From Bryoerythrophyllum caledonicum (Eukaryota; Streptophyta; Bryopsida; Pottiales; Pottiaceae), in the NCBI GenBank assembly GCA_963971425.1, contig OZ020515.1, positions 17,810,291 through 17,874,290 of the forward strand: a DNA stretch of 64,000 nucleotides. Direction: 5' to 3'. Under the pieces are notes generated by a model. It did not search any database. It was not told where the DNA came from and saw only the letters and a list, made by a program, of their open reading frames with translations. Both the position numbers and the translations under genes were made by a program. Shown in pieces: positions 6,716-57,134 of this stretch; position 1 is the stretch's first letter; the number at the start of each line of letters is the position of its first letter.

Positions 6716-6789
6716 GTAAGTATTTCATTTCTTATTTATATTTGAACTGTTCATATACTTCCATATACATGAAACCGTATATTATGTGA

Positions 6790-8348: not shown

Positions 8349-11300
8349 CTATGCACTGTAAAATTTAAGCACCAGAATTTGAAGAATTCGTTTGATCTCA
8401 ATCCAGCTGAAACTAGGTGCGTGGATGAACACATCTACCTCCGGATCTAAACCATATACAATGTTGAATACGTAATACAAGTGCTTACAGTAAGTCCATG
8501 AACCGCGTTTGCCGAGTGATTTCTTGGACATCTCTGTAAACGATAGGCAGTCGCAGCTTGGAAACTGGCCGACTGTAACAATATACCGTGAAATTGTGGA
8601 AATGTTTCGAGACTCTATAGTGACAATGCAACCCAATGCTGGAGGCGGGACCATCAGAATTGCACAGAGTTTTCCCACTACAGAGAGAGCAGAAGCGCAG
8701 CTGTTATGGTGTCGAGTAGTTGGAGCAGCTTCGTTCCTTCGAATGTTTTTCCCAAAACGCTTGGTTGGATGCTCATCAGGTTTAGGAGGAGTAGGGTAAT
8801 CGTTTAGGTTCACAGAGATACCTTCACCAAACAGCTGTCGAGGAGATAAAACCTGACGCTGTACAAGACGAAACCCGGCATTTTCAAGGGAAAGTATCTC
8901 TGTTTTGCTAAGGTTAGTGCCCATCTGAACAGGCCAGAACTCTGGAGGAGGTGGCATACTTTTAACCCATTTGCGCCTTGTGCCCATAACACAACGATGA
9001 ATGTCGTCGCTGTAGAAGAAGAACTGATGCCTCTCTAACCGAGTCTTCTTGTAATTGTCCATAAGACCAGTGTATGTAGGGGCAGCTGTAGGTCGATTGT
9101 TGCGCACAATCGTGGCAACACACTTCTTCCTCGTACCGGCTTGTAGAGCAAAATATTTCCTAGCGGATGTCTTCGAAAGCCTCGCAATATGCCAGTCATT
9201 CTCATCACATACTGTCTCTTCTACACTCTTCACGTGTGAAACGCGAGCTGAAGTTGTAGGTGGAGATAAATGAAGTCCTGCAGGAGACTCCGGAGAGTGA
9301 TGGAAGGACGGCAGAGGATCCTCAGCAGTAAGGTCGACAATCACTTGATCAATGCAAATTGCTTTACCTCGAGGGCGGGAGATGCTGATCTTATCCGGCC
9401 GATGCGAATCAAATTCAGATCCAGGAGGAAGATCAGCTTTTCTCTTTAAGGATACAAATTCTTCTTCTCCTTCAAGGTGAGGATTGCGAGTACAGAATTC
9501 TTCAGCACCAGGCATGTTGGCGAGGGCGGCATGAAGGACCTTGGCATTTCCTGAACGTTGGGCGGTGCGATGGGCAGTACGGAGCCGAAGTTCTTCCTTT
9601 CTGGGACCTGTACCTGGCTTCTCCCCTTTTAAGAATTGGTAATAAGCTACAACCTGCATGAAAGCACGAACCATGTCGTCGACTGCACCAACGTACAAAT
9701 CATTCCCTCTCTTCCCAGATTGCTGCAACCATTTGTTATGAATTGATTCGGCCAAATTACACGATGGCATCTCAGCAAGTTCAGCTTCAGTGAGGTTCTG
9801 TAGAGAAATCGGAACAATTATAGTTCACGAGTTAGAATAAATCGAAAGAACAGTATGGCATTAGATACCAAAGCAGGAAGTCATTAAAGATGTGATTATG
9901 TCACAAAAGTAACAACTACTAAAAAAGCGGAAGAGGTAAGTCATGTTATGCACATTCATTAGACGAATACACTGTTCCGTAAACAGAGACATTGGCAATG
10001 TTTTAATTGGTGAAGTGATTGACATGGCCAGACCAATGTATGTAGGCTGGTCTACCATGAAGGAGTTGCCGACATCGGCTATAATGCAGAAATGAAATTG
10101 AAATTACGGTAATATATGTAATTGTACAGTGACGAAGCAGGTTGCCGACTTTGGCGTCCATTTTCATTGTCTCTGATGACAGATTAGAAAGCAGTGTTTA
10201 AAAAGAATGGATTATGAAACTTACCAGCTCCATGAATCCTCCCCACTACCGATATCGGTAATGCCAAAAAGCTAGCCACAGGTCCAGTCTTGGAAGACCT
10301 TCATCAGTTGTTGCGCCAGACGACAACCACCACGCCTTTATTGCCAAATACCTGCTCTGAGCCACCTCCAAAGAATTGGAATTCTTGTATTGCTTACAAA
10401 GCCTTCGGTGCTGATCCTGAAGGTCAGTTCGTATATCAGCTTTAATATGCTTTTCCAGAGATTGAACCCAATGAAAAAGACAAGTTCTCTCTCTGGACTC
10501 CATGGGGACGGCTGGATCGCCAGTTCCGTAGCAAATTCGAACAGCATTCCAGTTCGCTTGAGCGCTATCCGCCATAAATCCCTTGAAATTTGGACTAGGA
10601 AGGTCATGTCTGCTACAAACGGCGTTGAGATTCTTCCACAACACTAACTGCGCTGCCACATCTTCGGACTGCATATCGCAGACAGCAATGGTCATGATTC
10701 GACAGTAACTGGAGTCGTACACATGGCAAGCCATTGTGGTCCAAGATTTCACCCGTTTGACATGGTCAAACATCATCCAGGAGTCCTCTAAATCACCTCC
10801 TGGTTGCATTCGTTTAACTAAATCAACTCCACACCCCGGACCAACCTCCGCCATCTTAAATATGAAGACTTTATCCGAGTCAGTACCTTGACCAGGAAAG
10901 CGATTCTCCTGGATGAAGGCCCAATTGCTGGATCCCCGAAGTTTGGTTATGCTATCCATTTCACCAAAACGACGAAGGTAACGGAACGTTGTCACCTCGT
11001 TCCGAATGCTAGGAGAGGACATCAATTTGAACTTGTCCAAGACAGGGACAAGCTCTTCAAATGCAAAAGTCTTCATGGGAACACCATCTGGGCGTAACAA
11101 TAACTCTCCAAGGTACTCTTTACTAGCTTCTAGCACAATAGACGAATTTGTTCCTGCGGGAGTTTGCTCCACCTGGTCGCTGATGAGGGAACGAAGCTTC
11201 AATGACGAGTCCCTGTAGTTTCCTTTCTTCACAGCATGACCATGCGTCCCCAAATGGATGCAAGCACGAGTCATATGGTTTTCCCTAAGGACGTAATATA

Positions 11301-12336
11301 TCTTCGCATCGCAAGACCCATAACATGTGGGCGGAACTTGATACACAGCACAGACAACGGTGGAATGACAAGGAGGATCACATCCAAGCACAAATGGAGA
11401 AGCAGAATTGCCCTCCCACTCAGTTTCATTGACAGGAAACAACCTATTCGGACGATTGAGATAATCACATGATTCATTAGCACACTTCAGCTTGCCCAGA
11501 CAGGTAGACATTCAGAAGGTGAGGTGAAACTCGGATTTAATGTGAGAAGTGGAAGTTCGAGTCCATGCATGGCCGTCATCCCGCTTATCCATTCCGTGCA
11601 GTTGCCCAGCCTTTGACGATGAAAGGTACTTTTCCAAAGAAGGAAGTTCAAAGATGACATCTCCATCGAACTGGGGAGGGAGGAAATCAACCTTGCAAAT
11701 TGGAATGGCATTGTAATCTAGTTTTGACAAAATTGACTTTGATCCACGACGGCTACTAAGAAGTCAGAGACAATCTACCACACTTTCCGTAGAGGTGATA
11801 GGGGGTTTGCTAATGGTGGGACCTGTAGGGTCAGACGGAGAAAATTGAGGAACAATGACTCGATCTATCGGTTTGCGAACGCTAGGCAGGGAACCAGGGG
11901 TGATGCCATCACTGTCTGAATCATCACTTAGTAGGACAACTAGGTTGTCACGTGGCTCAAGTTTTACTCTCCTAAGGAGGGGAGTCACATCATTTGCAGC
12001 GCAGGAACGAGCAGGAGTAAATTTAGACGAAGAACTGCTAAAACCACTGTCCACAGTCCCGTAGACTCTATAGGTTCCCACCGCTAAGCGCCAAGTCTTC
12101 GATCCTTGAGAAGAGCTGGGCATCTGAGCAACAGTATGGGTGACTTTGCTAGTGAGCGGGTCCACCACATCAAAGTCAACATGCAAACTCTCCTCTACGA
12201 AGTGGAATCGACAAGCTAATCGATTCCCGGAAACTACAGCGAGACCATCTTCAAGAACCGGAAATGAAATAGGTAAATTATCACCAACACCATGAATTAC
12301 TGCATATCCAGATATCAAATCCTCTGAGAGAGCCAT
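8349..12336 (-). pseudogene. Mutator-like transposase with SWIM zinc finger, three in-frame stops
   Basis: One frame runs from ATG at 12336 to 10225, is spliced across 9798-10224 (donor GTAAGT, acceptor CTACAG, phase 0) and continues to the stop at 8349, about 1,190 codons. In-frame stops interrupt it at 11764 (TGA), 11512 (TGA) and 10246 (TAG). After an N-terminal region comes a Cys-rich finger (CLGKLKCANESCDYLNR and later CIHLGTHGHAVKKG) of the FLYWCH/GCM1 kind seen in MULE transposases. A DDE-like core follows, with WMMFDHV, FMADSAQANW and the CLFHW motif typical of MULE cores. Near the C-terminus is CDCLSF, then YCKHLYYVF, a SWIM CxC...CxH finger. Family assignment is by motif; the third catalytic acidic residue was not located. 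It would bind the element's ends and catalyse cut-and-paste transposition. With three stops this copy is probably dead. Confidence 0.75.
10066..10260. repeat. Family-2 palindromes at the transposase intron/exon edge
   Basis: GCCGACATCGGC lies in the transposase intron (10068-10079) and TACCGATATCGGTA at 10247-10260 overlaps the last codons and in-frame TAG of the upstream exon. They are the same palindrome type as those in gene 1 introns. Confidence 0.7.
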
Positions 12337-13611
12337 GTGATCCTAAAGAATTGGAGAGTTGCATAAGATAATGATTGTGTGCAGCGGACAATGATGCATT
12401 TTGTAGAGACAGGGTCGAAAGGAAAGGTTGCTAGAGATGGACTTAAGAATTCTAAAGTAAAGCAGCGTTAATAATGGAGAAGTTAATAATGAAGAAGTTT
12501 GTGTCAAATTAAGACTACAGTGGTTGAGATTTGCCGCCGCCTCAGTGGAAATTTCATCATTCACGATTTCAGGTGATAACTTTTATCACTCTACAGAAGT
12601 ACGATTTGAAAATGGTGGCTAAGAATATTTACCAACTGTCATACGGCTGTGTGACGGTAATTTATTCGTGGCCAACATTTTGTAAACTACGGTAATTTAT
12701 TCGTGGATACCATAAACTAAGAGATGAAAAATAACATCGTTAACTAAGAACCATGATGATGGAAGCGTGCCTAATTAATTGTGTCCGTCAGCTTTGGTTG
12801 TGCCAAGGATTTGATTCAGGTGATTAGGACAACGAACCAGATTCTATAGATATTATTACAACCGATTAATAAATATCATCAGTAGAAAGGGAAAGCCCTC
12901 ACAACTAAGGTGAGGTCGTAAACAAGGACTATGCCAAGGAAGCGAAAAAACAGACTCTCTTCTTTTCGAATCGCAAGCAGTTGATTCGATCACGGCTAAT
13001 GAGGGAGATGAGATCGAGCGCCAGACTAGCGGAGGTGGGAAACACAACAAGAGTATTAGCGTTTGAGAAGTCTGGGTTGGACGAGGTTCAGACGGAAGGA
13101 GCAAGTTCGTCAGGGCTGCGACAATTAGCCGAGGCTGGGACCGAACGGAAAATTTCAGAAACTTTGAGAGGCAGCAGAAGTGGGAGCTCGAGCGAGGCTG
13201 GGAATGAAGATTGTAGAAGTGATGGTAAGATTGAGCCAATGATGACTAATGAGGGTAAGAGAGAAAATCCGTGATTATACTGCGCATAGCTGAATGTCTT
13301 GTCATCACATCTTTTCAAGAGCTACAACATTGATCAGTCGCAGTCAGGGTATTGTTTTCCTCCGGCTTAGGGTATAGTTGCACCTCCGACTTCGGACTGG
13401 GTCGATGCAGTTTGTTCTTCGACTTAGGGTATAGTTGCACCTCCGACTTAGGGTATAGTTGCACCTCCGACTTAGGACTGACCGTGCCAATGACTTCAGT
13501 TAGACCTTTAGACTTACCCCGAGGCGCTTACTGAGGAAGGGCACAGCTTATCGTCGACTATTGCTTTCTCTTATCATTTTGTGTGTTTGTGCAGGTCGGG
13601 GTCAGCTACGA
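12337..13611. other. Divergent intergenic region between transposase and gene 1
   Basis: About 1.3 kb separates the two divergent starts and presumably contains both promoters. A Ser/Glu-rich plus-strand frame at 12981-13274 could be a 5' exon but has no supporting splice partner. TACGGTAATTTATTCGTGG occurs twice (about 12655 and 12688). The sequence just before the gene 1 ATG ends in a good acceptor (TTTGTGCAG at 13594), which suggests an intron in the 5' UTR. Confidence 0.45.
13365..13480. repeat. Short direct repeats upstream of gene 1
   Basis: Three copies of TTAGGGTATAGTTGCACCTC followed by CGACTT, two of them directly adjacent, lie within the presumed 5' UTR or promoter of gene 1. Confidence 0.75.
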
Positions 13612-16600
13612 ATGACGGAAGGAGAGGGCCATGGCCGGAGGCGCCTGCAGAGTGAAGATGGAGAGGCCAATGAAAGCTCAGATGCCGTCGGAGAGGGTTA
13701 GTTCCTACTCCAATGCTGTTTTTTTTAATTCAGCTAACTCGCGTTGATGCGCCGGATCAGTGTATTGTCGTTGCGGGTGTTGCTCTCATGAGCTTTGAGA
13801 CCGGTTAAAAATGAAAGTAGTGGAAATTTCACAGCTTCGCGTAAACCACAAATAGGGTTCGAGTGACTGCGGCTGTGGAGAGCGCTCCCGCGCTGGGGCT
13901 GCCGACATCGGCAGTCCCCAGGTGAGGATACCTCCCTTGATAGAAGCTCCCTCACCTGGGGACTGCCGATGTCGGCAGCCCTATGGTGGAGAGGCTGTCC
14001 ACACAGACAGCTCCACCGAAGCGGGGCTGCTATGTGGATAGCCCCTCCACCATGGGACTGCCGACATCGGCAGTCCCCAGGTGAGGATGCCTCCCTCGCG
14101 GGAAGCTCCCTCACCTGGGGACTGCCGATGTCGGCAGCCCCATGGTGGTTGGGCTGTCTTCACAGACAGCTCCACCGAAGCGGGGCTGCTGTGTGAACAG
14201 CCCCTCCACCATGGGGCTGCCGACATCGGCAGCCCCATGGTGGAGGGGCTGTCTTCACAGACAGCTCCACCGAAGCGGGGCTGTTGTGTGAACAGCCCCT
14301 CCACCATGGGGCTGCGGACATCGGCAGTCCCCATGGTGGAGGGGTTGTCTTCACAGACAGCTCCACCGAAGCGGGGCTGCTGCGTGGATAGCCCCTCCAG
14401 CATGGGGCTTCCGACATTGGCAGTCCCCAGGTGAGGGAGCTTCCCGCAAGGGAGGCATCCTCACCTCGGGACTGCCGATGTCGGCAGCCCCATGGGGGAG
14501 GGGCTGTCCACACAGCAGCCCCGCTTTGGCGTACTTCATAGTGAGCCGTAGAATGTAAGACATCTGTCGCTTCAAGTATGATTGGTTTGGATAAGTTGAT
14601 TTGGGTAATTGGATTATGCAAGTTAAAACCAAGTAGATTCTGTGATCTATGTGAGGACTAATGATCTGTGTTGACATGATTTGACAGCAAGAGAACATGA
14701 ATTGGAAAGTCTCGAGTTAGGGGACGGCAATGGAGATGAAGAGAGCCCGAGCGTCATTGCTCGTATGTTTGAACAACCGGTCTCAAAAAATGATATTGTG
14801 GTCACAACAGATTAGACACTTGGAAAAATATGTTGGAGCATTTTGGTTGACACATTATTATTTATCGTATATGTCCGCCATTAAAGTTGGGCAACTCTGA
14901 GGCACTCGAGGGCAGCCGATGTCGGCAGCACTTGGGTGGAACAGCAGCCCTTGCAATCAGTTCTTCCACCCTAGGGCTGCCGTCATCGGCTGCACAAGAG
15001 AACTGGAGCTCCCTCAGTCGCACCTCGTCAGAATGAGTGCTGCCGATTGCACTGTCATCTCGCCATTCACTCGCATTCGCCGTTTTCGTTAGTTAGGTCA
15101 TTTTGCAATCGCTGATGATGACTTCATGTTCAGGTTCGAAGGATTGTGAAGACTCGGGAAGTGCACCCGCAGCAGGTTGTTCATCCTATTGCTCTTAGCC
15201 TACTATGTTTGTGGTCGGCAATGCTTGAGGTCCTTCGGTTTCGCAGTTCATGTTTGATTGCCTATTCAACGTATTTTGATTTGGCTTTGACGTTTTAGGA
15301 GCGGGCTCTCTGGTTACTGTTTCGGACTTTGGATTTACTGGCGAAGAAGAGGATCTCGTTTACTTAGATGCCGCTAATGCGATGTCTGCTGAGGAGCTCG
15401 GTAGAGAGATGGAGAAGTTGGTCGTCATGGAGTCAGCGAACACAAGTCAAATCCTTGATGAGCTTCGGTTTAAGCCTCGATCCAAATCAAAGCTCAATAT
15501 TCCATTATGCCGAATGCTGCCCCTCGTTGCTGTAAGGCCATCACTGAAAAATGATGTTATGGCTCTTGGGGCTCAGTTTGTGAGCACAGGTTATATGGAT
15601 GGACACGGTGTTTTCTACGTTGCTGTGAACGATAATGAGGGCAGATCGATGGAAGTCACCCAGGATATAGTAGCAAAATGGAGCCCACTGTGGGTTAGGG
15701 CAGATGAAGAGTTTGAGAGTGACTTGATGAATGATGATGCATGGAAGCAGTTTCTGGGAAAGATGTTCTTTGTTTGGGACGGGAATCACAGGCTGGCTTC
15801 GTGGTTACCAATTATTAATAGAGATCATGGCAGTGACCGTGCTTGGCATTACAGGGTGGAGTCAATCATTCTTGAGGTAAATGGGCAGGTGGGGCGTCTC
15901 CAAACTGCGCTTCACCAAGTGAACTGGTAAGCTTCAAAACAAAGCTTCTGAACCAACTCTTTAGCTCTCGATGATTCTTATTGTTTTGTATCTGAAATGC
16001 AAGAGGAACCAGACTGGACACGTTAAACTCAACCTTGTTCACAAGCTGTATCGCATGCAAGGTATCGCTGCTCAGCCTCTACAGTTTTTTGAAGACTTAG
16101 TTTCGAAAGAAGACCTAGCTAACGCGGGGAAGAAGCAGCAGTCTGCTAATCACACCTGGTACACATTGACTGTTGATGCTCTTATTGGTGTCCTCTATCA
16201 GGTACTCCTCATTTTCCTTCGTTCTTCTTGATTAATTTTTGTATGGTGGCATTATTAGAAGAGTCTTCGTCGTAGTTTTTGCTCTTTTCCGAAGGCGCCG
16301 ACATCGGCAACTCTGTAGAGAGTAGGGCTACGTAATAAGTATTTGTTTTCCTCATGAATGAAATTGACACTTGATCAACATTGCAGCAAGAGTTAGGTGA
16401 CGCTGTAGCCCATGCTACAAGGAAGTTTAAGGAACAGTTTCCGGAGAAGTCGAGTCAGTGGAATTCTGCTAAGCTTCATGAGGTTATTGGAAGAGCTGTT
16501 GCGAAGGTGAGGAAGGACCGCCGGTCTGAAGTTATGAAGCAGCTTCCGATAGCTGATCCAAGGCTCACGCCGCTATTTCTTGAAGAAGTTCGAAAGCATT

Positions 16601-19600
16601 ACGAGAACCACGAAGATGATCCTGAAATGTCTCAAGAGAAGCTGTGGTACCTTGCAACATCAAGCATGGATTCGACTACGAAGGTCAAGTGGTTGCAGCG
16701 CTGGAATATGCCTGCATCTCTTCGTGCAGCGGTTCGGTTTCCTCGGTCGAAGTTTGCCGATCACTCGTTTCCCGAGTGGCTGCACAAGGCTACTTGGTGG
16801 GCACAAGTAAGCATTTTTGCTGTACTTCACTGTCAATTTTTTCGACGAATATACTGTTGTCTAAATGTTGTGTTCTCCGGTTCTCAGATTGCCAATGAAG
16901 TTGAAGACCTCTTCACAGCCTCGCTGTCAGATCTCAATGTCACCATCAACTATCACCCTGTAGGTGAAGGAGTTGTCAAGAGTCTTGCAGATTATGTTGA
17001 GGAGATGCGAATCCAGCTCTGGGATTTGGCATTTGTTCAAGATTTTGAGGTCAACAAAACTCATAAGAATAAACAACCGGAAGACCAGATTGGATTGGCC
17101 GAGGCGGTTTCTAGAGTTCTCTACAGGTACTATCACTTTGTCCTTCTCCTTCGGCATGCAGTATCAAAGACACCCGCATTCTTTCCTGGATACCTCGACA
17201 GGAGAAGTGACAGTTGCATGATTACGGATGAGATTGCAAAGAGGTGGGGTCATGAGCACTACGCAACTTGCGGTTGGTATTTAGACTGCCCTGTGAAATG
17301 CCCTCCTTCGTTTGAGATTTTGCTGAGGAACGGTATTCAGCCAACTTTGACTGGCACGGAAGTGGTGGTTCCCCAGCCGGCTGCCGAAGCCACATCAAAG
17401 AAGCCACGCGTCTCAAAGCGAAAAACTGAAGAAGAGGCAAAGAAAAAGGCTGCTCAGGCGGAGGAGGCGGTAATTGCAAAAATGGCGGCAGCTGAAGCGG
17501 AAGCCAATATCAAAAGGTTAGCGGAGGTCGCCGTTGCAGGGTCCAACCTCAAGAGAATGGAGGAATCGTTGTTACGAGCAACTGTCAATACGGATTTCAA
17601 TGTGGTCTCGTCAGAGCTCCCTTCGGAGTTTAATCCGCTGCCCTCGGCATCTTGCCCTCCTGCTATAGCTCAAGATTTTGAAGTTGATCAAGCATTCCCC
17701 GTCTCAATCATCTCTGACCGGCTCAAGAAACGTGCGGTTTCAAAGAAGTCTAAGACTAAGGCAAGCACCTCGATTCAGTCTCGTGTTTTCGTAGCCAACT
17801 CCAGCATCAGAAAGATTGTGGAGGCTCTTCCAAACATTCACCTGACTCTTCGAGAACTCAATGATTTCTCCCTTGAGGTACTCTTTTCAACTAATTCGCT
17901 CCAATTATCTCTCAGATATTTGTTACTCTTGCCATGTTAAGGTTACTACATGCAATTCGTATTGCCAATGTGGTTGATATATATATTCTTATATCTCTTT
18001 ACCGTTGAGGTTAGAATGCGGATTTTGTACTTCAAATGATATTGAGGAGCTCATTCTCTCTTCAGTCTTCTTATCTTCCTTCACTAGCTATTTTTTTTGG
18101 TGGAGCAAAGCTGTCTCAAACTGTTGTTCCATTTTTCTGCTTGCCGGCGATTTTCGAGTACTACATAATATTTGTTCTAACCTTCAGCAACGTGGGATAG
18201 GCCACTGACATGAATTGTCTGCAGCAACCTTATGTGAAGGAATATATTCTACCATGAATATCCTTAACCACTGCCGATATCGGCAGTCGAATTTCATGCC
18301 CTCTACAATGCTTTCCTGTTTCTTTATTTTCAGTTCTTTCCTCTCCTAATCTGTTTCCTCCTTGCTTTCCTCTTCTCTTAATATGTTCCCTTCTTCCTTT
18401 CCTCTTCTCGTAATATGTGCCCTCCTTCCTTTACTCTTTTAAAATCTTCTTATTCCTTCTTGTTATCTGTGCCCTGAAACCTCCTGTTTATTTTTTTTCA
18501 GGTCATGAAAGTGGCTACAACAATGTCTCTTTCAGCGCATTGCCCACATAGCGGCTTTGACTTGATTATCGGAGATCTTCAAGATGGGATGTCAGTTCCA
18601 GGTGTCTCCGAGAGAATGGACCACATCCCACTTTGGAATGAGTATGCCGTCGAGGATACAGAGACGCTTTTTGAATTTGCTGAGCATTTCCTCAACGCAA
18701 AGGGGGCTGTTTTTTTGTTCGTACCCGACGTCCCTCATATCAAAGCTGATGTGCTGTCCTTTGCAGCTGCTTATGGGTTTCAGCCAATTCGTGAGTGGTG
18801 GGGCATTAATGACCTCCCCTTATCGTCGTTCTTCTCTCCTCATGTTCAGATATATCATGGTTTATTTTTATCCCTCAACTTCTGAATTCCGGTCTTAAAA
18901 TTCATCCCGTTTGCTGTGTATTGTTGATTCCAGAGCAAGCGCTTCAAAATTCAACTCTTCATTCATGAGAAGCTTGGAGCTGATTGCTATCACATTGCTA
19001 TTAATGATGAGCACACCGAGTTGGGCGTCGGAGTTGGTGATTCGGATGTGTTGTTTAATTTTACGTCCAAGGAGTCTAAGTCGATGAACGGCTCGCTTCC
19101 GTGGAGGGGCCCTCATGAGAAAGACGCTAGCTTCATTGAGATGTTCATTGAGGCACTGACACAACCTGCCTCTCTTGTCCTGGACGCCTTTGCCTCTGTT
19201 GGTAAGTTCTCATCTTTCTCATTCTCCATGCATCTATGGTCACTAATCCCTAGCTTATGTTTGTCTTCCATCATTGACTCCTTTTTTTCGAATGCAGGGA
19301 ATTCCGTTCGTGCCTGCAAATCAACGAACCGGCATATTGTTGCACTCGATGATGATATTTTAGTTTTCAACGCGAAATTGAAGCCTTTTCTTGAAGTGCG
19401 TCCACCAGTACCTTGTGTTCCCTCTGTTGCGCATGCTCGAACGCTTATTGACGTGGACGTCCCCATTCGGGTAGTTACGAAGCGAACTAGATTGAGTAAG
19501 TAAGTTTGATGATGCGATGCTTGTTAGTGCTACAAGTGTTCATTCATTCCGTAACTAAATTGTGCTTGACATGGACAGGTTGATTGAGCAACAGAGATCT

Positions 19601-19795
19601 CCTAACGAAGACTTCGACATGGCACCTTGGGATGCGGCGGCTGCAACTATCCAGGCTCCAGCACAATCTCCAGCTTCGTCTTCGTTTGTTCCTAGTTACG
19701 ACAGTCGTGTCTGTTGTTTCATTGATGATGAAGCAGAGGTGGAGAATTGGGTCCACTCACCTTCCTCTGACACTTCCATGGACTCGTACTTTTGA
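13612..19795 (+). CDS. Gene 1: ParB/Srx-like domain fused to beta-class DNA methyltransferase-like domain
   Basis: Eleven exons join in phase without a stop, predicting about 1,154 residues: 13612-13696, 14688-14762, 15134-15175, 15299-15926, 16006-16201, 16387-16806, 16888-17877, 18502-18843, 18934-19201, 19298-19499, 19579-19795. Residues 1-70 are acidic. Around 134-235 is a ParB/sulfiredoxin-like fold (PLCRMLPLVAVRP ... FFVWDGNHRLASW). A Lys/Ala/Glu-rich helical stretch lies near 667-705. From about 830 come FDLIIGDLQDGM (the place of DPPY motif IV), a GF-x-x-I-x-x-WW segment, then HEKDASFIEMF and LVLDAFASVG followed by a conserved acidic DDD (motif I region). Motif IV before motif I is the order of beta-class N4/N6 amino methyltransferases. 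Both signature motifs are altered (DPPY to DLQD; FxGxG to FASVG), so activity is doubtful. Its place in the transposon suggests a transposition accessory or anti-silencing role; that is inference. The end of exon 8 is the least certain border. Confidence 0.72.
13885..14525. repeat. Family-2 palindrome array in gene 1 intron 1
   Basis: Alternating inverted units centre on CTGCCGACATCGGCAG, flanked by CCCCTCCACCATGGGG, CCCCAGGTGAGG and AGCTCCACCGAAGCGGGGCT. Each ~120-bp unit is the reverse complement of its neighbour, so the array can fold into several stacked hairpins. Long false frames rich in 'CRHRQS' or 'SPASVELSV' result. The whole array lies between exons 1 and 2 of gene 1. Confidence 0.85.
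14911..14993. repeat. Family-2 palindrome pair in gene 1 intron 2
   Basis: GCAGCCGATGTCGGCAGC and, inverted, GGCTGCCGTCATCGGCTGC flank about 45 bp containing CTTGGGTGGAA and TTCCACCCTAGG, together forming a hairpin. Confidence 0.75.
16297..16308. repeat. Single family-2 palindrome in gene 1 intron 5
   Basis: GCCGACATCGGC, a perfect 12-bp palindrome apart from the central AC/AT pair, lies in the 185-bp intron between exons 5 and 6. Confidence 0.7.
18271..18286. repeat. Single family-2 palindrome in gene 1 intron 7
   Basis: CTGCCGATATCGGCAG is a perfect 16-bp palindrome within the 624-bp intron between exons 7 and 8. Confidence 0.75.
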
Positions 19796-21149: not shown

Positions 21150-21225
21150 TTTTTCATTTCTACGCTCGCAAACCTAGGCTCACAGCTCGCAACTCGCATA
21201 ATTGGGCACGCAAAATAGCAATCCC
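21150..21225. repeat. Right terminal inverted repeat of the Mutator-like element
   Basis: Reverse complement of the left end: it ends GGGCACGCAAAATAGC plus AATCCCC and is followed directly by the target duplication CGGGAGTGCGT. Confidence 0.75.
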
Positions 21226-21236
21226 CGGGAGTGCGT

Positions 21237-26965: not shown

Positions 26966-27061
26966 CACTCTTGTTCTGTGGCATGAATCTCGAATTAAGA
27001 TTGCAATTTCAGAATTATGTGACCTGTTCCTAATCGGTTTTTTGTTCGTTCATTTTCGCAG

Positions 27062-39549: not shown

Positions 39550-39557
39550 TCCACATT

Positions 39558-39590
<33 letters not shown>

Positions 39591-47141: not shown

Positions 47142-47246
47142 ATAAGATAAAGGAGTTTCAAATTGTAAATTTTTTAATATTATATTTTCGTCAGGACTAT
47201 TAAAAGTCCTCTCGATAGTTGATGGGCTTACACTTGGGGTTCGAAA

Positions 47247-48893
47247 TTAAAATTCTACGGCAGAAGGACTAATAGATCCACCATCATTTGTATTTTCAGT
47301 TCCTGATGAATTGACTTCGGTAGATTCTTGCTCACTAGAAGACTCTATAATAGGAGTTATAAATTGTGGAGAATCAGTCAACAATTTGAGAAATTGTTGT
47401 TGATGCTTTTTTCTCAATTTATAGGTCCTCAAGGACTCTCTAATTTGTTCCGCATTTGGAGGTAGTATGTTTCAATGCGCAAAATTAGGAGATGGTGGTG
47501 AAGTCAATAATTCATTCAATACTAAAATATTTTCGGGTGAATTTGGTGCACCACAAGGTTTAGGTGATAATCTTAAACCTTGATTAATTAATGGTGATGG
47601 TGTAGCGTTAAAGTACGGATTTGTAGCTACGGCTAATAATTCTGGTTTAGCACATTTTTCGGCTCTTTTATCTCGTGCTTTATTTTGCTTTTCTGTTTTA
47701 TCCTTATCCTTGTCGGACATTGAATGATGTTTCGCACATCTTGAACATGGTGGTTTGGAATAATTATTTTCTGAAATTTTTTAATGATAAAATTTCCAAA
47801 ATAATTTTCCAGCTAATCCCGGGGTGCTAGATATAATTTAATATATTGTTCCAAGGCTTGTAAATCATAAACTTCTTGTTTAAAATTACGGGGATATTTC
47901 CATGATCTCAAGATATCCGGAACCGACTTTGCTTCGTAAGAATGGCTTAGTGTAAATAAAAGCTCATCAATTCTCTTGGTTAAAAATTTAATTAATTTTT
48001 TCTCTTTTCTATTTATGGTTGAATAGATATAAAGGTAATCTATCAAATTACAATAAGAGGTGACGATTGGGTCATATTTCAACCAATTTGTTCCCATTAC
48101 TCTATTGCTTTGATCTTTTATAATTAAACCATGAGCTAAGTGTAAAAGGATCAACGTCAAAAGATTCTTCGTCTTGTTCCTCTTCAAAATTTCTCGGATA
48201 ATTATGTTCAAAGATTAATCTTTCAACAAATTGACTTCTATGATTATCCTCAAGATTTTCCTTGCTAATTTGTTCAATTTCTTTCGCTAGAAAATGGATT
48301 AAATTGGTTTTGTTCTTTTTAGCTCTTTGGTATAATACTAATAAGCGTCTCAATCTTATTAATATTTCTCTAAGAGTTTCCGGTTTTATCCCCATTTCTC
48401 ATAAGCGAAGCAACCCAAACGCATGTACATTTGTGTGTACAATTTCTCTACTCAAAAAATCCGGCATTAAACACCTTGAATTTTTGATAGAAGGGTCGTA
48501 ATTGAACAAATAGGTAGATGGCTTAGTAGTTGGATATCCGTTCCAAGTACCACATCCACATGAAATTATGGGTTGGGTTAATTGTTTTAGCCTACCGTAT
48601 TGGACAAATATAAAGTGTAATTTGATTGGTAGTAACAATGACCCTTCATCTACCATCAAAGTCCCTATGTGTTGTCCTCCATTCCAAATTTTTGATAATA
48701 TGATTCCTTTAATTTCTAAAGGTAAATTATCAAAACTTTTTTGAAAATCTTTACCAAGTTGTAGAGGTCTTCCACTTAAGGTAAAACCTTTACCAAAATA
48801 GGCTCCTCTAAATACTCGATAAAGTGAGGAAAATAAATAAGGTCCTTTAAAGAAATTATTAATTTCAGATGGTTTTAATTCCCAAGGAAACAT
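47247..48893 (-). pseudogene. Degenerate open frames between PBS and gag
   Basis: Consecutive frames at 48893-48399 (starting MFPWELKPSEINNFF), 48395-48102, 47720-47472 and 47432-47247 share the gag-pol phase and are separated by single stops. One frame, 48211-47813, is shifted. Together they look like one former ~500-residue N-terminal extension of the polyprotein or a separate leader ORF. I do not recognise a domain. Two parts contain similar segments (YPRNFEEE and YPRNFKQE after a helical stretch), which suggests an internal duplication. Confidence 0.45.
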
Positions 48894-49341
48894 TTTAGCA
48901 ATCCCATATTTTTAATCTTTTCTATAAAAAATTTATCAAATTTCTTTTCAGACTTGCAGAGCATAATTTTTTTTTAATTTTTTGTTCACTGCAAGGCAAT
49001 GATGCGATGCCAGAACAAAGACCATTCGTCGACTGTCACTGGACTGCGTTTCCTTATACAGTCCTGATTTAGACGATTTGTCAAGGTCTCAGTCTACAGT
49101 CACATACATTGTGATTGTCTATTTGTAACGGGAATTTTTTTGATGTGTAGAACACCAATTGTTTAACGGTTAATAGGATTGTAATTTTGGACTAGCATAT
49201 GTATTATCTTTGTAACCAATCAAGTATTATCAGAGAGCTGTACCGGTATGCCACTTAATAACATATCATTACACCTACAATTTGTTTTGACATTAAAAAA
49301 CCTCGTCTGTCTACATCTTAGCTACCGTTAGCCAGAAAGCC

Positions 49342-49359
49342 TCCCCGGCAGCGGCGCCA
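49342..49359 (-). other. Primer binding site, tRNA-Asp type
   Basis: Two to three bases inside the 5' LTR the coding strand reads TGGCGCCGCTGCCGGGGA. From memory this is the complement of a plant tRNA-Asp 3' end with one mismatch, a PBS used by Athila-type elements. Confidence 0.75.
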
Positions 49360-49362
49360 AAA

Positions 49363-51314
49363 TGTAGGCGGAAATTTGTCTTGTAAATATAAATAAATCC
49401 AAGGTAATTTCCTAGTGGGGGGTCTTAGGGAGGCTTAATTCAGTCTATCGTTTGAATAACTAAGGTCACATGTTAGATAGGAATGTCTTTTGTTTAACAA
49501 ATTGCTTAAGATAACGAATTATCTATTATAGGTGTGTTAATTAACCCTTGTGCTTTTCCCGTGAGTGCACTCTACACTCTTACAGTCAATTAGTGGTTAA
49601 ACATGCATTTGTGATTGTGTGGGATCCTCTCACTAAAGGACACAAATAATCTTTAAGTGTTTTAGTGAGTGATACAATTTGTCTTGTTCATAATCAATGC
49701 ATCATAACCAATTTTATTGCCAACTCTAATTGCTAATTCCTTTTTATTAGAATTGACAACTATGCTAGCTATTCTATTTTGCCAAGAGCTTATGGGTTCG
49801 GAATTCTATCCTGGCTTCCCACTTTCGCTCCACTGGTCCGCCTTAAGTTAATCATTTCATCATACCTGTAAAACTTTCCATTCAAAGAAACACCGGACAA
49901 CAATTATATCTCACTCTCGGTATAATTGTTGTTATTGATAACCCTTTGCTATCAAATCTATGTGTCCTCTCACTAATACTTACTTATGGCAAATGGTCTT
50001 GTTTTATGTCGTCAATCTCATGACACATACAAACAATCTCTTTTTCTTTAGCTTGACTTAATGTACACTTGGTCAAACTTTAATATAAAAGGCATCTAGC
50101 CCAACTTATGACAACATGGTCATTCTCAAGACTCTCTCGGCCCACTCTTGGCTCTTTAGTCTTACTTCTCCATTGCTCTCTCTTTTAGCAATTCTTTTCT
50201 TCTCAATTTACCTTCACTATTTGTCATGCTTCACCCATATGATCTTTAATGCTTCAATTCATACTATAATGACATAAATTGTTTTTGGGAAAATTACTAT
50301 TGTCTTATAATTTAATGACTAAGGGTGATCAATCCTTATTTCACACATTATGGACGTAATTTCACTCGGCAATTCTATCAGACAAATAGTATAATTGTAC
50401 GCATTTTACCTCACCCGCTATCCATTCATCTCAGTTTAGACTTAGGGAAGTTACAACAGTCATACAAGACTATTTGTAATTATCACTTTATGGTTTTTTA
50501 TAATTCGTCACATCACTCGGCGTTTACCATCGGAAAGGATTTGACAAATGGTAATATAATAAAAGGACTCGATTACTACTGTGCTTCACAGCTTCTCCAT
50601 TTATGATACTCAATTTAGTTATAGACACTGATAGTAGTCAAGACGAATTGTATATTACAACAATCTCAAAGTGGTGATTGAGAATGGACTGCAGCATAGA
50701 TTAATTGTATCCAAGATACACTCGTTTATTCCTGAGCCATTAATTGTGCACCATTATCACAAATCAACGTTTTGTGAAAATAGACTCAATCAACGACTAC
50801 TGGTCTTCTGCAATCCGCCATCAAAATCCCAAGGATTCTGACTTCGTCATCCTCTAACCTCCAATCTACAACTCTGATATAATGTAGACCACTGGTAATG
50901 CAGAAATTACACCAACAATTTAGAATTCATAAAACTAGGCTTGTATTCCATGAAAATTTTGAGAGTTACAATCAACAGCCTAGGACACACATTCAAAGTG
51001 AGAAAAATGTGGTGTATCCAAAGTTGGATTCAGTTTCTTTATATCCCTCTCGTGACTATTGGTTTCTCGACCTAGACCAATGATCTTCTCTCTCAACTTC
51101 CATAACTACTCGTCTAACTTACTCCTGATAACTTCCTACTAATAACTACTTTTATTAACTTACTTAACCGCCTATTAGTCTTTTTTACGCTATTCCGAAA
51201 AATTAGGGTAAAGGTTCACACTCTTTCATACTATTTGTAAACTGGTGCTACTTATGATCCCTATTCACACTGTAAAGATGAATAGTGTTCAAAAAATAAA
51301 ATTTCTGCACTACA
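49363..51314 (-). repeat. 5' LTR of the Ty3 element (right copy in the window)
   Basis: 1952 bp, nearly identical to 31451-33402. Carries the retrotransposon promoter on the minus strand; no specific TATA box is claimed. Confidence 0.93.
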
Positions 51315-51319
51315 CACCA

Positions 51320-52606
51320 CCACCCCCTAAGCGACAAAGGCAGCACCAAGGTGGAGCTCCTTCGACACGGACCCGTGCAACTATTCGAGCGGCAGCCACC
51401 GGTTTAGCTCTACTCGGAGGTAAGACTTACAAGGCCCCCAAGTTGGTTGAAGCTCTCCGGGTGTATGTGGACGACGTGGAGAGGACATTGGGGCAGGTGA
51501 GTGGCTTGGTGGGCAATCCACCTAGCCATGGATTGGTGGCAGCAGTCAAGGAGAAGATGGGAGGTGCTAGTGACCTCCGCATCATGGAGCAGAAGGTGGA
51601 CCGGCTTAACCTCCACATGGCCAAGGTGAGGAGTCGGGCGTTGGAGGTAGAGAAGGGTTGGAAGGAGGCATGTCTCCAAGCCAATGCCTCAGCATTAGCG
51701 TTACAATAGGTGGAGGAGGCCTTGCACTTTCCAGCGGATGCAGTATTGAAGGCCAAGATGTTCGATGCCAAGTTGGAGAGAGATGGCCATATCTCCAGCA
51801 AGAGGGTAATCGCTTTCATGGTAGAGTAGACGGTGAAGCTGGAGACAGCTTATGCTAACATGAGGATGTCGGTGAGTAACCTCACCCACATCCTGCCTAA
51901 GATCGTGGAGGAAGCTGATGGCGAGGACCTGGATGACGATTCTGGTTCGGAGGCTGATTCGGAGAGACAAGACTCGGGTGACCAAGGCCTTCCAAAGGGG
52001 AAGGGTGTGATTGATCTGGATAGCCCGGTTCTGCCCTCACGGACTCCACTTGTGGGAGTCACTGCCTGCCATTCTCCTTCAGATGTCACCACACAGGTAC
52101 AGAGCGTGAGAAAGGAGCGCACGGGTGCCACGATGGAGCCTCCGCGCATGGCTCTTCCTCGCCAGTTTTTCCTCGGAGACCCCGGTTGTACCACATCGAC
52201 CGTTGCCCCTTTGCAGGGTAGGTCTCCTTTCGGGAAGACTACTAGTGAAAACTCAGCTTACTTGCACCTTCCAGTACGGATGGAGGGCAAGTTGGGACAC
52301 ACCTCCGTTCAAAAGGTCTTCATTGGGACTCCGAGCCAGGTATCGGTCCTTCCGACCCGGTCTGAGCCCCACCAGGGCACTACTTCCGTGCTACTCACTC
52401 CGGGTGGCCCGGATGCCACGTTGACTTTGATGGAGGGCGTGCCTCGGTCATCCATGGCCGGATCGGCACCCTCTTCATCCACAGATATGCTATCCCCTCT
52501 TGGGATGCTTGCGACAGCCGCGGCTCTCCCGACTTCAAGCAAGAGCGCGAAGAAGCGGAAGAGGAGGGAAGAAAAGAGAAGACTTGAGGAGTTGACCCGG
52601 AAGTAG
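51320..52606 (+). pseudogene. Element B protein, C-terminal half (coiled coil)
   Basis: Continues the frame from 31450 with a basic Pro/Lys/Arg/Gln stretch (PKRQRQHQ), then heptad-rich sequence (LRIMEQKVDRLNLHMAKVRS) and an acidic Asp/Ser cluster near 51930-51980. A low-complexity tail ends in Lys/Arg-rich residues at 52606. In-frame TAG codons at 51707 and 51827 interrupt it. The coiled coil aligns with 24350-24900 of element A. With three stops in total this copy is not expected to make full-length protein. Confidence 0.55.
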
Positions 52607-53977
52607 GGTCAGATTCTTTGTTTGTAGGTTACTGTTCACTTTTGGAGTTGGCCCCAAGTTGAACGTGGATTTGACTTGGTTTTGCCTTGGAAATTGTGTT
52701 TAGATGCCTTTGACTTTGCACGTAGAGTTGGTGGGACGGTGGCTGCGCCGTCAAGGGTAGTTAATGCTGCCAGGTTTAGTAGAAGGCATCCTTTGTGTTT
52801 GGACGCTTGTGTGTGTTTGCTGCAGTATTAGTGAGGAGCCTCAGAGCACCTCTCTTCACTGCTTGTTGTGTGTACTTTGCTTTCAGTTTAATTCTAAACC
52901 TACGCTCTTTGAAAACCTTCTATGGTTGGGAGAGCTCGGATTCTACATGATTGTGAGTACCATTTCGAGTAGTCCATTCCTCAAGTCCGTACTAACCGTC
53001 TAAGTCGTTGTTTCCTTGTTCCATCAAGTAGATTAGTCCGGGTGGATGGAAATAACAGGTGAGACGGGTAGGTGGTTAGTTGGGCGGGACTCTAACTCTG
53101 ATCCCTTGTGATTGTTTCCTTGTTCCATCAAGTAGAATAGTCCGGGTGGATGGGAATAACAGGTGAGATTACAAGTGGTTAGGGGAGGACGAGGGGGGAG
53201 TGACGGATGTGTAAGGGTCCTAGCGAGTCTTGAGTGACCTTCCAACGTTAGATTGGCGTCGGTTGTGAGGGCTCGGGTCGGTCCCTGAAACATCTTACCT
53301 CCAGCCGCATTGGAGGTGGAGGGAGACTAGGAGTAGGACGGATAGTGGGCGGGTAGGCCCCTTGTTCACTTACATTATGCACATCGTAGCCTCGGAAACA
53401 CGGGTCTAACAGCCCTTCGGGGGAATCTCAGTGACACCATATCCATCCAAGTGAGTGAGTAGAGTTAGAAGGAGAGAACGGGAGGAAGAGTAGCTGGTAC
53501 TTGTGTCAAACACTAAAATCTCTTTGAGTCCATGAACCCTTGTTCATGGTGAAAAACCTTCTTCGGATACGAAAGTACCTGGATGTCTATAGTGTACATA
53601 GTGTAAAGTCCTGCCCGTCGAAACCTAGTGAGGACCGTAGTGAGGAAACCCAGTGAGGACCGTAGTGAGGAAACCCAATGAGGACCGCAGTGAGAAACCC
53701 AGTGAGGAAACCCAGTGAGGACCGCAGTGAGGACCGCATTGAGGATACCTCCCTCCCTTTTGGTAATGGGGAATGAAGATTTGGTGTAACTAAGTCTAAC
53801 CTTTGTAATTAATCTTCATTTATCTGTCTTGTGATGTAATTATTGTGGTATGTAGAGTTTGTATAGTTACAGACTTGTTGTTAGTCGTTGTAGTTCACGA
53901 GGATTCTCAGTGGGAACGAATACCTCAGGGTATCTTTAGTGTTAAGATGTGAATACTTGCCAACGTGTACTACGACA
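52607..53977. other. 3' non-coding part of element B with repeats
   Basis: Contains a ~50-bp direct repeat about 107 bp apart (CCTTGTTCCATCAAGTAGAW near 53015 and 53122), a run of GTGAGGACCGTAGTGAGGAA and AACCCA units at 53625-53740, and GTGGGAACGAA near 53911, which is shared with element A. No coding frame. Confidence 0.6.
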
Positions 53978-53982
53978 CCGTC

Positions 53983-55092
53983 CTGAAGCAAGAGATGGTG
54001 AAATGCTTCACGGCAATGGAGAGCAGGGATGAGCAGAATTTTAGGAGAGCGCGAAGTCCAGGTGTGTTTATAACTGACCACGCTGGGTTGGTTGTGCTGG
54101 TGAACTTGTTCAATGATGAAGATCGGAATTATCTTCAAGGCCCTGTTTGGGATTACACGTCGACAGTGTACCTCACTTCTCCGGCCAAGCAGTTCGCCAA
54201 ACCGCTATCGGTTGAGCCAAGCCTACCTCTCTACTTCAATTTCGTCTTCGGGCAGACCGATGGCAATGCAGCGGAGGCAAGCTTCCGAGACTACTTTGGG
54301 CCTGATCTGCAGTAAATCCTGTGTGGAATGCGAAGGACTTTCAAAGCGTCTCCGGACCGAGCTGTGATCAGGTCGGGCGTGCCAACTTCAACGTTTGCGC
54401 GGTAGACAAATTGATTGGTGTACTTTGCCGTCGCAACGTTGCAATTATCAACGTTGGAGCTGGTTCTGCGATTACCTGGATATCCCTAGTAAGAATGATG
54501 TCATCATTTGTCATCATTATCACTCTTGCTCTTGATGTTTTTAGTTGCGTTAATCATGTACCTTACGCTCGAAACGGGTCTTTTCTTGCAGACCAAAGGC
54601 GCTAGAGTCGTGGAGGTTGTGTTCTCAGCAGCAGACAAGACCTTCGCTTTTGACAATGCAAAGAAGTTTTGGGATGCTCGTCAGGTTCTAGCCCTTACCC
54701 CACCTGCGACTCCGCCGACTAAAAAGAGGTTGTCCAAGGTAGAGAGAGTTAGAAAGAAGTCCTTGGTCGTTTCACGCGCACCTGTCCAAAATGTACAGCC
54801 AGAGAGAAGAATCGTTCTCAGGAGTGCACGACAAACGACTCCGTCAGAATCCTCAGAAGAAGAAGTTGGCACTGACCACCGTGGCCCTGAGAGTGACGAA
54901 GAGAAAGACAATGAATCGGACCATGACGGCGAAGAGGACGACAATAGGGAAGAGGAGATACGATTGAATCGTACAAAAGAGGGCGCCCAGGAAGAGGACA
55001 ACAGCGATAGTGGATCGGATGGAAGACGCACCCCAATAGGAAATCCGATCGCTGCACTACCTGGACCTGATGTGAGTTGGCTCGCCGACTAA
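53983..55092 (+). pseudogene. Gene 2, C-terminal part: methyltransferase-like domain and acidic tail
   Basis: Resumes the gene 2 frame after element B. A segment with GVFITDHAGLVVLVNLF ends in a frame change near 54310-54320. The next frame reads to a GTAAGA donor at 54489 and is spliced to 54592, with phase kept. Across this intron lies IINVGAGSAITWISL, then TKGARVVEVVFSAADKTFAF, in the same place and with the intron in the same position as LVLDAFASVG|NSVRACKST in gene 1. It is therefore a homologous, further degraded methyltransferase-like motif I region. The following ~120 residues are basic, then strongly acidic. A TAA closes the frame at 55092, but a consensus donor GTGAGT at 55072 could bypass it and join the HAD module in phase. 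Confidence 0.55.
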
Positions 55093-55493
55093 GCGGACCT
55101 CACTTAGTGCCATCCGTCCGAGACCGAGGCCGAACCAAGCGTTTTATTTGCTGGTACCAGGCAACAGTTGCATCTTGGCCGGGACGACACTGACATTGGT
55201 GGCAACGTACGACCCATCGACTTCTTTTTTTCCATGGACTTAAATACTTTATAATTGACTTTGAACTAATTAATGTAGTGCGTGGTAATACATCTTTGAT
55301 AGTGTTTATATCTTCAGTAGTCCTCCTTCTTGCAGGCAGCATGGAGTGTCGGTGCCTACCGCACGAGTGGATCGCCGTCCTCGAATTTGGTACAGCCCAC
55401 CCCCTCATTCTGAATACGCAATCATTGTCTGCCACAACGTCTACTTGTCTTGTAATGTTTAATTTTCATACTCTAAAATTCTGGTATATTGAG

Positions 55494-55675
55494 ATCGAAT
55501 GCGCCCCCGATCTCTTTGATCGGATCGGATGTGCTCCCAATCTCGCCGATGGGACCGGGTTCGCCTTCATTGTCGTCTATCAGATCTGTTGTGCTCCGGA
55601 TCTTCCAGATCGGATCGGGCGCGCCCCCGATCTCATGGTCCGGATCGAGTGCGCACCCGATCTTCCATTCCGATC
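55494..55675. repeat. Family-1 palindromes in the intron before the HAD module
   Basis: Units such as GATCGAATGCGCCCCCGATC, GATCGGGCGCGCCCCCGATC and GATCGAGTGCGCACCCGATC occur at about 30-60-bp spacing, wholly within the predicted intron 55390-55743. Confidence 0.8.
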
Positions 55676-56811
55676 TTTTTGGGCTTTGGGTATGATTGTC
55701 GACATTTGTATGTCCATCCACTGAATGTATGTCCTTCGCGCAGCCAATATCCGTCGACCCTCGTGATGTATCTCCTTCTTCAGTACCCACCTAAGACACC
55801 CCTCACTCCGTGGAGGATATGCACGTCAATATGTTGTCAGGGCTTGGAATTGAGGTTGGCGGAGCTAGGCAAGACGAAGCAAGGGAGGAGACAATGGAAG
55901 AACGAAGGGTGAGAGAGTCCAATGAGGAGCCGGAGGTACTGGAGGTCGAAGAGAGGTGGTATAACAGGCCTGAATCCCCACCAAGGGAGCGAATTCATAT
56001 TCCGTTCGATCATGAAAGGGCAATGTGAGTCCGAGGTGTCGGTTCTAGAACGAGGATATCGGCGAGGATTGTACGTGTCACAGCAGTAGTTATTGCTCCC
56101 GCAGTCGTGGAGTGTCTTTTGTCCGGGCCGGCTTTGATGCAGGTAGATCAGTCCTATCAGTCTTCATCTGGCGACGCCACTAATGGTCACGTGCCCGACC
56201 CTGAGGAAGGCCCAACCGAAGTGGAGGTGGTGGTTGTCGGCGCACTTACTAACTTACGGTCTTTGCAACTACCTTCTACTTCGGGGCGTAATCTTTCATT
56301 GACGGATTCAACTTGCGAACATGTAGTCGATGAAGGGGCTTACGAAGGCATGTTTGATGATGAATTGAAGCCTCTTAGCCCCGCTAACATTGCATCGGAA
56401 TCTGCCGTTGCGGAAGTCCATGACGGGTTAATCTCTGAAAGAGCCGTGATTCAAGTTGATGTCTCGTCTTCCTTGGAGTGCTCCTCAATTGCTCGAGGAA
56501 ATCCCCTTCTCCCAGGTAGGTATCTCTTGCCTTTGGTTCTTTGTTCATTTTCTTCTGAGTTTTATATTCATCGGTCCTAATCTGCACTTGGTCATCTAGG
56601 ATCCACTGGTGCGGATGCGAAAAAAGATCTTCAAGTCGTTGCTCATAGTGGAAGCGTGTCGAAGCCTGCCGCAGCTTTTACCGAAACCGGAAGCATTTCA
56701 AAGCGTCATTCGTCCAGCGAACGTGCCCTTCCAGCATCAATAGTTGATGGTGATATTCCACGCCTATGTTTCATTCTAAGTAATTCGTGTGAAAAATTCT
56801 TCCTGTTGAGA

Positions 56812-56905
56812 TCGGGGGCGCGCCCGATCTTCCAGTGGTGATCGGGAGCGCATCCAATATTTTTGTGGAGATCGGGTGCTCGCTCGATCCTCTACTTGAG
56901 ACGCC
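56812..56905. repeat. Family-1 palindromes in the intron before HAD domain 1
   Basis: GATCGGGGGCGCGCCCGATC, GATCGGGAGCGCATCCAATA and GATCGGGTGCTCGCTCGATC in a row, within the predicted intron 56780-56978. Confidence 0.8.
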
Positions 56906-57134
56906 CTTCTCTAAAGTCCATTTCCATGTTTTGTCTAATAGAGTATGGTTCACCTTTGGATTTTGCTTCTTGTTTCAGGTGGTCTAGTTCGAGCAGCTGA
57001 GCCTCGAGCACCTCGGGAATCCACGGTAAGGGTACCGAGGTACACTGTCGTCGTGGACTTAAATGGATTTTTAGTTCACAGGCCTGGCTTTAACCACATT
57101 TGCACTCTTAGACCCGACGGTGGTCGTTTTCTAG

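Follow-up and report, generated by a model that had tools for sequence, protein, structure and literature searches.

To our knowledge, the VANC proteins are the best-known case in which a transposon distinguishes copies of itself from other genomic DNA. VANDAL elements of Arabidopsis carry arrays of short motifs, specific to each lineage, within introns and non-coding upstream regions, and VANC is a fast-evolving transposon protein that binds these motifs and lifts the silencing of its own lineage (PMC5735166, PMC10398659). ParB-methyltransferase proteins have been described in algal transposons, where they are suggested to bind and modify their own transposon (PMC12477816), and fungal KDZ and other transposons carry TET/JBP genes (PMC12730594). 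Here we analyzed a stretch of 64,000 bp (the window) from the moss Bryoerythrophyllum caledonicum, located at positions 17810291-17874290 of contig OZ020515.1 (C2) in a 437-Mb genome, and mapped its insertions by comparing copies (numbered L009 to L036) within the same genome. The window is a nest of mobile elements, in which one DNA transposon, element A, lies inside another, element B, and further insertions break B. Each carries a transposase and a divergently oriented accessory gene (gene 1 in A, gene 2 in B), and each bears its own short palindrome outside coding sequence, family 2 in A and family 1 in B; a lineage related to B bears a different one, family 3.

The closest functional parallel, by analogy, is VANDAL/VANC. 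In both cases lineage-specific short motifs stand in tandem repeats within introns and upstream non-coding DNA and differ between related lineages, and a fast-evolving accessory protein is encoded next to the transposase (PMC5735166). In the moss a short motif is likewise clustered in the non-coding DNA of one lineage, with some clusters lacking the genes. Unlike in VANDAL/VANC, the motifs are palindromes found in either orientation, the proteins look ParB/methyltransferase-like, and anti-silencing enters as an analogy only. No Pfam match of gene 1 or gene 2 reached the cut-off, and none of the weak matches listed was to the VANC family. The ParB-methyltransferase proteins resemble those found here in their size of about 1100 amino acids, in the apparent presence of ParB-like and methyltransferase-like parts, and in belonging to a large DNA transposon whose transposase is encoded on the other strand, as holds for both gene 1 and gene 2; they differ in that the moss elements have candidate recognition sites, with another site in a related lineage, in that the canonical catalytic motif was not found in the moss proteins, and in that the transposases are of SWIM/MULE-like and DUF7869 types, not Sola1 (PMC12477816). 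The available part of that paper names no recognition sites and has no occurrence of the string "palindrom" (PMC12477816), and we found no report in the open-access literature of what such transposon proteins recognise. TET/JBP-bearing transposons also have an accessory gene related to DNA modification (PMC12730594), but no TET/JBP or KDZ match was found among the open reading frames (ORFs) scanned in the window and loci. The case described here joins the first two systems: its proteins look like the ParB-methyltransferase kind, and its candidate sites are distributed like the VANDAL/VANC motifs.

The boundaries of element A were established from copies L033, L034 and L035 of element B, in which window position 7445 is joined to 21226; adjacent B pieces (Table 1) are contiguous in the same copies, each of which spans part of B. 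MULE-type transposons are recognised by a target-site duplication of about 8-11 bp and terminal inverted repeats. Element A shows an 11-bp duplication and imperfect inverted repeats of 56 bp (86%), which begin about 7 bp inside each end. Its transposase gave no match in a Pfam scan; a Foldseek search, for which the model was partly of low confidence, ranked the ISCth4 transposase first (E 0.034) and gave no match at E <= 0.001. The ORF 10249-11511 has 264 homologues at E <= 0.001, and 99 matches were scored in the moss genome itself. Gene 1 lies divergent from the transposase within 25 kb at 67 of these 99 matches, in the other orientation at 3, and was not found at 29. The introns of gene 1 follow GT..AG in nine of ten cases as drawn; intron 4 ends in CAA, and an AG 3 bp further keeps the frame. 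Outside the window, 1.8 kb to its left, the minus strand of C2:17807621-17808520 matches the transposase of element B, with 91% identity to the L030 copy, which itself matches DUF7869 (E 6e-13 and 3e-15). A gene-2 exon search returned 123 scored genome copies, 106 of which were typed for pairing: within 40 kb, transposase B is present and divergent at 50, present in another orientation at 2 and absent at 54.

Within the window, family 2 (core GCCGA-CA-TCGGC, most copies being two 5-bp arms with a CA spacer) gave 13 rows at <=1 mismatch, 9 of them exact, against a shuffle mean of 0.11; all lie within 10068-18284. The 11-exon model of gene 1 bears out the placement of family 2 in introns 1, 2, 5 and 7 by the first-pass annotation, which also put this palindrome in an intron of the partner transposase; the site there lies between two transposase ORFs, probably in an intron. 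For family 1 the same annotation had given an uninterrupted 18-mer, which has no match in the window at <=3 mismatches; with one free base on either side of GCGC, 99 rows were obtained over both strands at the same tolerance (shuffle mean 0.06). Sites at 612-1287 correspond to the array it had reported at 585-1290. Two arrays that it had overlooked, at 6808-7391 and 21284-21509, fit the pattern and continue from 26798 in uninterrupted copies of element B. As for the two gene-2 introns said to hold family 1, the sites at 26818-26958 lie 5' of the first gene-2 ORF, in an intron or the promoter, and the site at 28526 (2 mismatches) lies in the gap preceding the exon at 28591. The sites at 55493-55662 and 56810-56889, assigned to two introns of a HAD-type gene that follows gene 2, are present and fall outside the coding matches of other copies; that they are intronic is the earlier reading. 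Four weak family-1 rows at two places, 58930 and 59586, fall outside the pattern. The two families were not seen to mix within either element of the window, as had been noted. The proposal that each gene carries its own palindromes in its introns needs modification: each gene family does have its own palindrome, outside coding sequence, and introns do hold it, but arrays also stand between the divergent transposase and gene 2, and the unit is the DNA transposon rather than the gene. Gene 1 is itself nested inside the transposon that bears gene 2.

The same association was found genome-wide. Family 2 (GCCGACATCGGC) has 839 forward and 900 reverse matches (1739), versus 4 + 3 = 7 for the reversed-pattern control, and family 1 (GATCGGGNGCGCNCCCGATC) has 126 sites (126+126 on both strands; control 0+0). 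Twenty 10-kb loci (L009-L028) were taken as the first 20 family-2 clusters on contig C1, picked by palindrome; 18 of them contain gene 1 and/or transposase A. Seven family-1 stretches (L029-L035), which come from 6 of 15 clusters, all multi-site and not a random sample, contain gene 2 and/or the HAD gene in six cases; the remaining one, L030, covers the upstream region of the copy to which L029 belongs. Exact family-1 palindromes occur in 0/20 A loci and exact family-2 palindromes in 0/7 B loci. With relaxed matching, family 1 at <=3 mismatches has no site in 19/20 A loci and a single one in L027, the only instance of the two families in one copy, and family 2 at <=1 mismatch is absent from 7/7 B loci and from L036. 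Counting dyads de novo, GCCGA-2-TCGGC or its own extensions ranked first or tied first in 15/20 A loci (not in L012, L019, L021, L023 and L028), and ATCGG-8-CCGAT or TCGGG-6-CCCGA did so in 7/7 B loci. Of the 187 dyads counted in these loci, none falls on a coding match (0/108 for family 2 and 0/79 for family 1), coding matches making up about 28% and about 40%, respectively, of the element-like sequence examined, which consists of related copies and arrays. The palindromes are located in introns and between the two divergent genes.

Protein-first tests, which start from protein matches and ask for a palindrome within 10 kb and so judge the association more fairly, gave the same result, with a chance level of 0.9-1.9% on C1. 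They covered C1 to 25.19 Mb for family 2, C1 to 34.79 Mb for family 1, the whole of C1 (all 65 of its gene-2 rows) for family 3, and C1-C3 plus C4 to 13.66 Mb for the long form of family 2 described below. An exact family-2 site lies near 6/6 gene-1 matches (chance 1.9%), three of which are only 47-49% identical to the window's gene 1. For family 1 the figure is 9/13 clade-B gene-2 matches, and the four without a site are diverged or partial (72-82%). Conversely, 10/15 family-1 clusters have a gene-2 or transposase-B match within 10 kb (cluster 13205313 pairs with C1:13207688). Random scatter was not seen, and random or unrelated repeats as the source of the palindromes were ruled out by these tests.

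Gene-2 copies fall into a clade B, at about 67-100% identity, and others at 34-55%; the labels C, D and E denote identity and alignment extent, not a tree. We chose one 37%-identical copy, L036 (C2:28562300-28567799), by its protein match and by the position that sites take in element B, its palindromes not being known beforehand. About 300 bp 5' of its gene-2 ORF (402-1811, minus) a 28-bp unit, GGGATCGTAAGATCTTACGATCCTGAAA, which contains a 22-bp palindrome, is repeated 7.9 times in tandem; place and pitch are near those of the family-1 sites before gene 2 (30 bp), and L036 has no family-1 or family-2 site. The pattern derived from it, family 3 (GATCGTANNATCTNACGATC), has 114+110 matches in the genome and 0+0 in the control. 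On C1 it lies within 10 kb of 11/11 clade-C gene-2 matches (34-38%, aligned to residue 318) and of 0/54 others (0/31 clade B, 0/12 clade D, 0/11 clade E; Fisher 1e-12, with copies sharing descent). At <=3 mismatches family 3 gave 14 sites in L036, one each in the window, L011, L027, L032 and L034, and two in L035. A match to gene 2 or transposase B lies within 10 kb of 19/26 family-3 clusters on C1. Clades B and C hold different palindromes in an equivalent inter-exon gap: an exact family-1 site stands 46 bp before a gene-2 exon in 4/13 clade-B matches, and a family-3 site, different in sequence, stands 96 bp before that same exon in 4/11 clade-C matches. One clade of diverged paralogues thus carries a different palindrome. 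Families 1-3 bring the palindromes read so far to three, and there are at least two further gene-2 clades (D and E).

Between clade C and the clade-B queries, gene 2 is 36.5% and the transposase 70% identical (medians, 14 pairs; the ParB-like ORF of L036 alone, 46%), and thus sequence change is much faster in the accessory gene than in the transposase. These values also bear on the unlikely possibility that the palindromes are bound by the transposase, or by a cofactor of transposition, and serve end pairing or autoregulation of the transposase promoter: the B and C transposases are 70% alike while their palindromes differ. The comparison for such sites is provided by the subterminal repeats of En/Spm-type elements. 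In element A the sites lie at least 2.6 kb from either end and are therefore not subterminal transposase sites of the usual kind. One family-2 site does lie between transposase ORFs, and in ten A-type loci (L012-L018, L022, L025 and L028) the 10-kb stretch contains palindromes and the transposase but no gene 1, both of which would suit a transposase site. Only for L012 was gene 1 found just outside (C1:1556497), and a search of L013-L018 for a shared ORF that might be gene 1 gave none that was convincing.

The 16-bp long form of family 2, CTGCCGACATCGGCAG (138+141 genome matches, control 0), bears on the choice between the two candidate readers. It lies near 14/26 transposase-A matches that have gene 1 versus 0/10 that lack it, which points to gene 1, not the transposase, as the reader. 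It also lies within 10 kb of 17/21 gene-1 matches of at least 60% identity versus 5/26 at 40-49% (chance level 0.3-0.6% on C1 and C2), and 21/24 long-form clusters have transposase A or gene 1 in their vicinity. Another, sister form of the palindrome, GTGCCGACATCGGCAC (138+167, control 0), occurs mostly at other coordinates than CTGCCGACATCGGCAG among the matches listed. The core of family 2 is conserved in the diverged gene-1 copies tested, and its flank drifts along with the gene.

We also observed a subfamily of transposase A that shares about 75% identity with the window copy and comprises 14 matches, several of equal score, with open frames of 757 amino acids. None of the 14 (C1:8970096, C1:9568723 and 12 more places) has a scored gene-1 match within 25 kb, and the two named have no family-2 site within 10 kb. 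This subfamily is a natural control for the claim that the palindromes are lineage tags.

Passive hitch-hiking is rather improbable but has points in its favour. Tandem repeats with a single origin in each lineage, propagated with the element and unread by any protein, would give tandem arrays of variable copy number, as observed; descent alone yields lineage specificity, and some clusters stand without the genes. Against this, the repeats of all three lineages are palindromes and not of an ordinary kind, and those of B and C, although different in sequence, occupy matching places at nearly the same pitch (28-30 bp). The core of family 2 persists in copies whose gene 1 has dropped to 47% identity. 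Among the 19 units of the window array, selected as a repeat family with an identity of 60% or more, the palindrome has 1.41 bits per position versus 0.89 for the linker.

The first-pass annotation ascribed ParB-like and methyltransferase-like domains to both genes. The ParB-like part amounts to short motifs, WDGNHR in gene 1 and GGQH..AAHR in gene 2, which BLASTP aligned at E 2.1, a value that does not support homology between the two genes. The C-terminal part of gene 1 resembles N6_N4_Mtase (E 1.7e-4, below the Pfam cut-off) in the region of the S-adenosylmethionine (SAM) motif I only, around which PHROG methyltransferases (E 0.001-0.004), DpnA (E 0.03) and RsrI (E 0.1) were also matched; gene 2 has no profile match at or near the cut-off. 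An AlphaFold model of the gene-2 ParB-like part was discarded (predicted local distance difference test score 38.6), and the L036 ORF gave nothing significant against PDB by sequence. This ORF has 2 homologues among 7995 scored candidates. Gene 1, compared with 5.8 billion proteins, has none at E 0.001 among 7990 scored candidates, a weak negative as introns may fragment predicted proteins.

A restriction-modification-like role, in which methyl groups placed by the protein on its own palindromes would mark them as self, a role proposed for the algal ParB-methyltransferase transposon proteins, would agree with this motif-I resemblance to N6/N4 methyltransferases and with the presence of GATC in both arms of families 1 and 3. 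We regard it as very improbable. The motif [DNSG]PP[YFWH] was found neither in the gene 1 protein nor in ten gene-2 pieces (window, L034 and L036). The likely motif-IV position of gene 1, placed by eye, reads GDLQDG in the window, and GDLKDG in L009, L010 and L011; L019 and L027 have other sequences there, likewise not DPPY (five alignable paralogues in all). Because the canonical catalytic motif was not found, methylation by these proteins, judged from their sequences, is doubtful, and with it the modification role suggested earlier. The suggestion of homing is not supported: the profile searches run, which miss distant domains, gave no endonuclease match.

Rather than transposase sites, passive repeats or methylation marks, each palindrome family is probably the private tag of one DNA-transposon lineage, read by the lineage's own accessory protein and affecting expression of its own element. 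Each lineage would encode a transposase and an oppositely oriented, fast-evolving ParB/methyltransferase-like protein, which most likely binds the palindromes of its own lineage, clustered in introns and around promoters. We infer both this reader and the effect of binding, which may be to keep the element's own copies expressed, by anti-silencing or self-activation; the tag could then change as the accessory protein diverges. Anti-silencing specifically is possible, at clearly less than an even chance overall. Several observations weigh against a private tag. Only one tag switch, from B to C, has been read, and the genomic copies are related by descent, so their counts are not independent. 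Among the matches listed, 5/15 family-1, 3/24 long-form family-2 and 7/26 family-3 clusters lack a partner in the surrounding 10 kb or so; at L021 and L023 a lone family-2 site stands without any detectable element, and the ten A-type loci without gene 1 count here as well. Gene 1 at 47% identity retains the family-2 core, showing that divergence does not always alter the tag, and ParB homology is without a match in any profile library tried.

It is possible, at a little under an even chance, that these elements represent a second, independently evolved self-recognition system besides VANC, in which ParB-like and catalytically dead methyltransferase-like modules read lineage palindromes, protein and palindrome change together, and several mutually blind codes coexist in one genome. 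Candidate recognition sequences can be read straight from the genome for three lineages, including two that are related yet differ in their sites. Protein-DNA co-evolution becomes directly testable with few proteins and short oligonucleotides, and the lineages are a possible source of an orthogonal set of DNA-binding proteins.

Table 1. Coordinates of elements, genes, palindromes and insertions in the window
Feature	Position	Strand	Remarks
Element A, DNA transposon	7446..21225		13.8 kb; divergent transposase and gene 1
Left target-site duplication of element A	7435..7445		CGGGAGTGCGT, 11 bp; right copy 21226-21236
Element A transposase	8352..12342	-	ORFs 8352-9824, 10249-11511, 11767-12342; SWIM-like CxCx(n)CxH spotted by eye
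Family-2 palindrome between transposase A ORFs 8349-9824 and 10246-11511	10068..10079	+	Probable intron; equivalent gap in L012, L024
Gene 1	13612..19795	+	11 exons, 1155 amino acids; rebuilt model, open to one terminal stop
Family-2 array, gene 1 intron 1	13901..14485		Six exact sites; 95/159-bp tandem units, both orientations
Family-2 sites, gene 1 intron 2	14915..14990		One exact, one with 1 mismatch
Family-2 site, gene 1 intron 5	16297..16308	+	One exact
Perfect palindrome variant, gene 1 intron 7	18273..18284		GCCGATATCGGC
Element B piece separating its transposase from gene 2	1..7445
Family-1 array, transposase side of element B	590..1290		Sites 612-1287; 30-bp pitch
Family-1 array 5' of gene 2	6808..7391
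Element B piece with family-1 array	21226..21534
Family-1 array in element B piece 21226-21534	21284..21509
Element B piece, gene 2	26798..29544	+	Family-1 sites 26818-26958; ORFs 27060-27524, 27528-27839, 27843-28436; exon from 28591
Element B piece, remainder of gene 2 (to ~55092) and start of HAD gene	53978..57134	+	Family-1 sites 55493-55662 and 56810-56889
Element B piece, HAD gene continued	57477..59039	+	ORF 58056-58841; NIF PF03031, E 1.7e-8
Insertion in element B, long terminal repeat (LTR) retrotransposon type	21535..26797		~5-bp duplication, TGT..ACA ends
24-kb insertion in gene-2 exon	29545..53977		~5-bp duplication; nested LTR element and gag-pol
CACTA-like insertion within HAD gene of element B	57135..57476		342 bp; CACTAGTACAAAAGTGGG inverted ends, TAG duplication

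The window copy of gene 2 is broken by insertions and also has an in-frame TAG at 27840-27842, which is common to L032; L029, L033, L034 and L035 read through. The nested LTR element in the 24-kb insertion has 300-bp repeats at 31441 and 49353 that are 99% identical, and its gag-pol ORF spans 42021-47246. Element B also holds a degenerate telomere-like array of AAACCCT type at 2468-2790 (46 units of 7 bp, 68% match).

The NIF/FCP1-type HAD phosphatase gene (56029-58844) adjoins gene 2 in L029, L034 and L035 and is present in L031, where a gene-2 match lies just beyond that stretch. Because it adjoins gene 2 in several copies, it looks like transposon cargo, not a host gene. By hand count, C1 (65 Mb, the largest contig) holds 31 of about 49 gene-2 matches of at least 67% identity; C1 may be a special chromosome, e.g. 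a sex chromosome.

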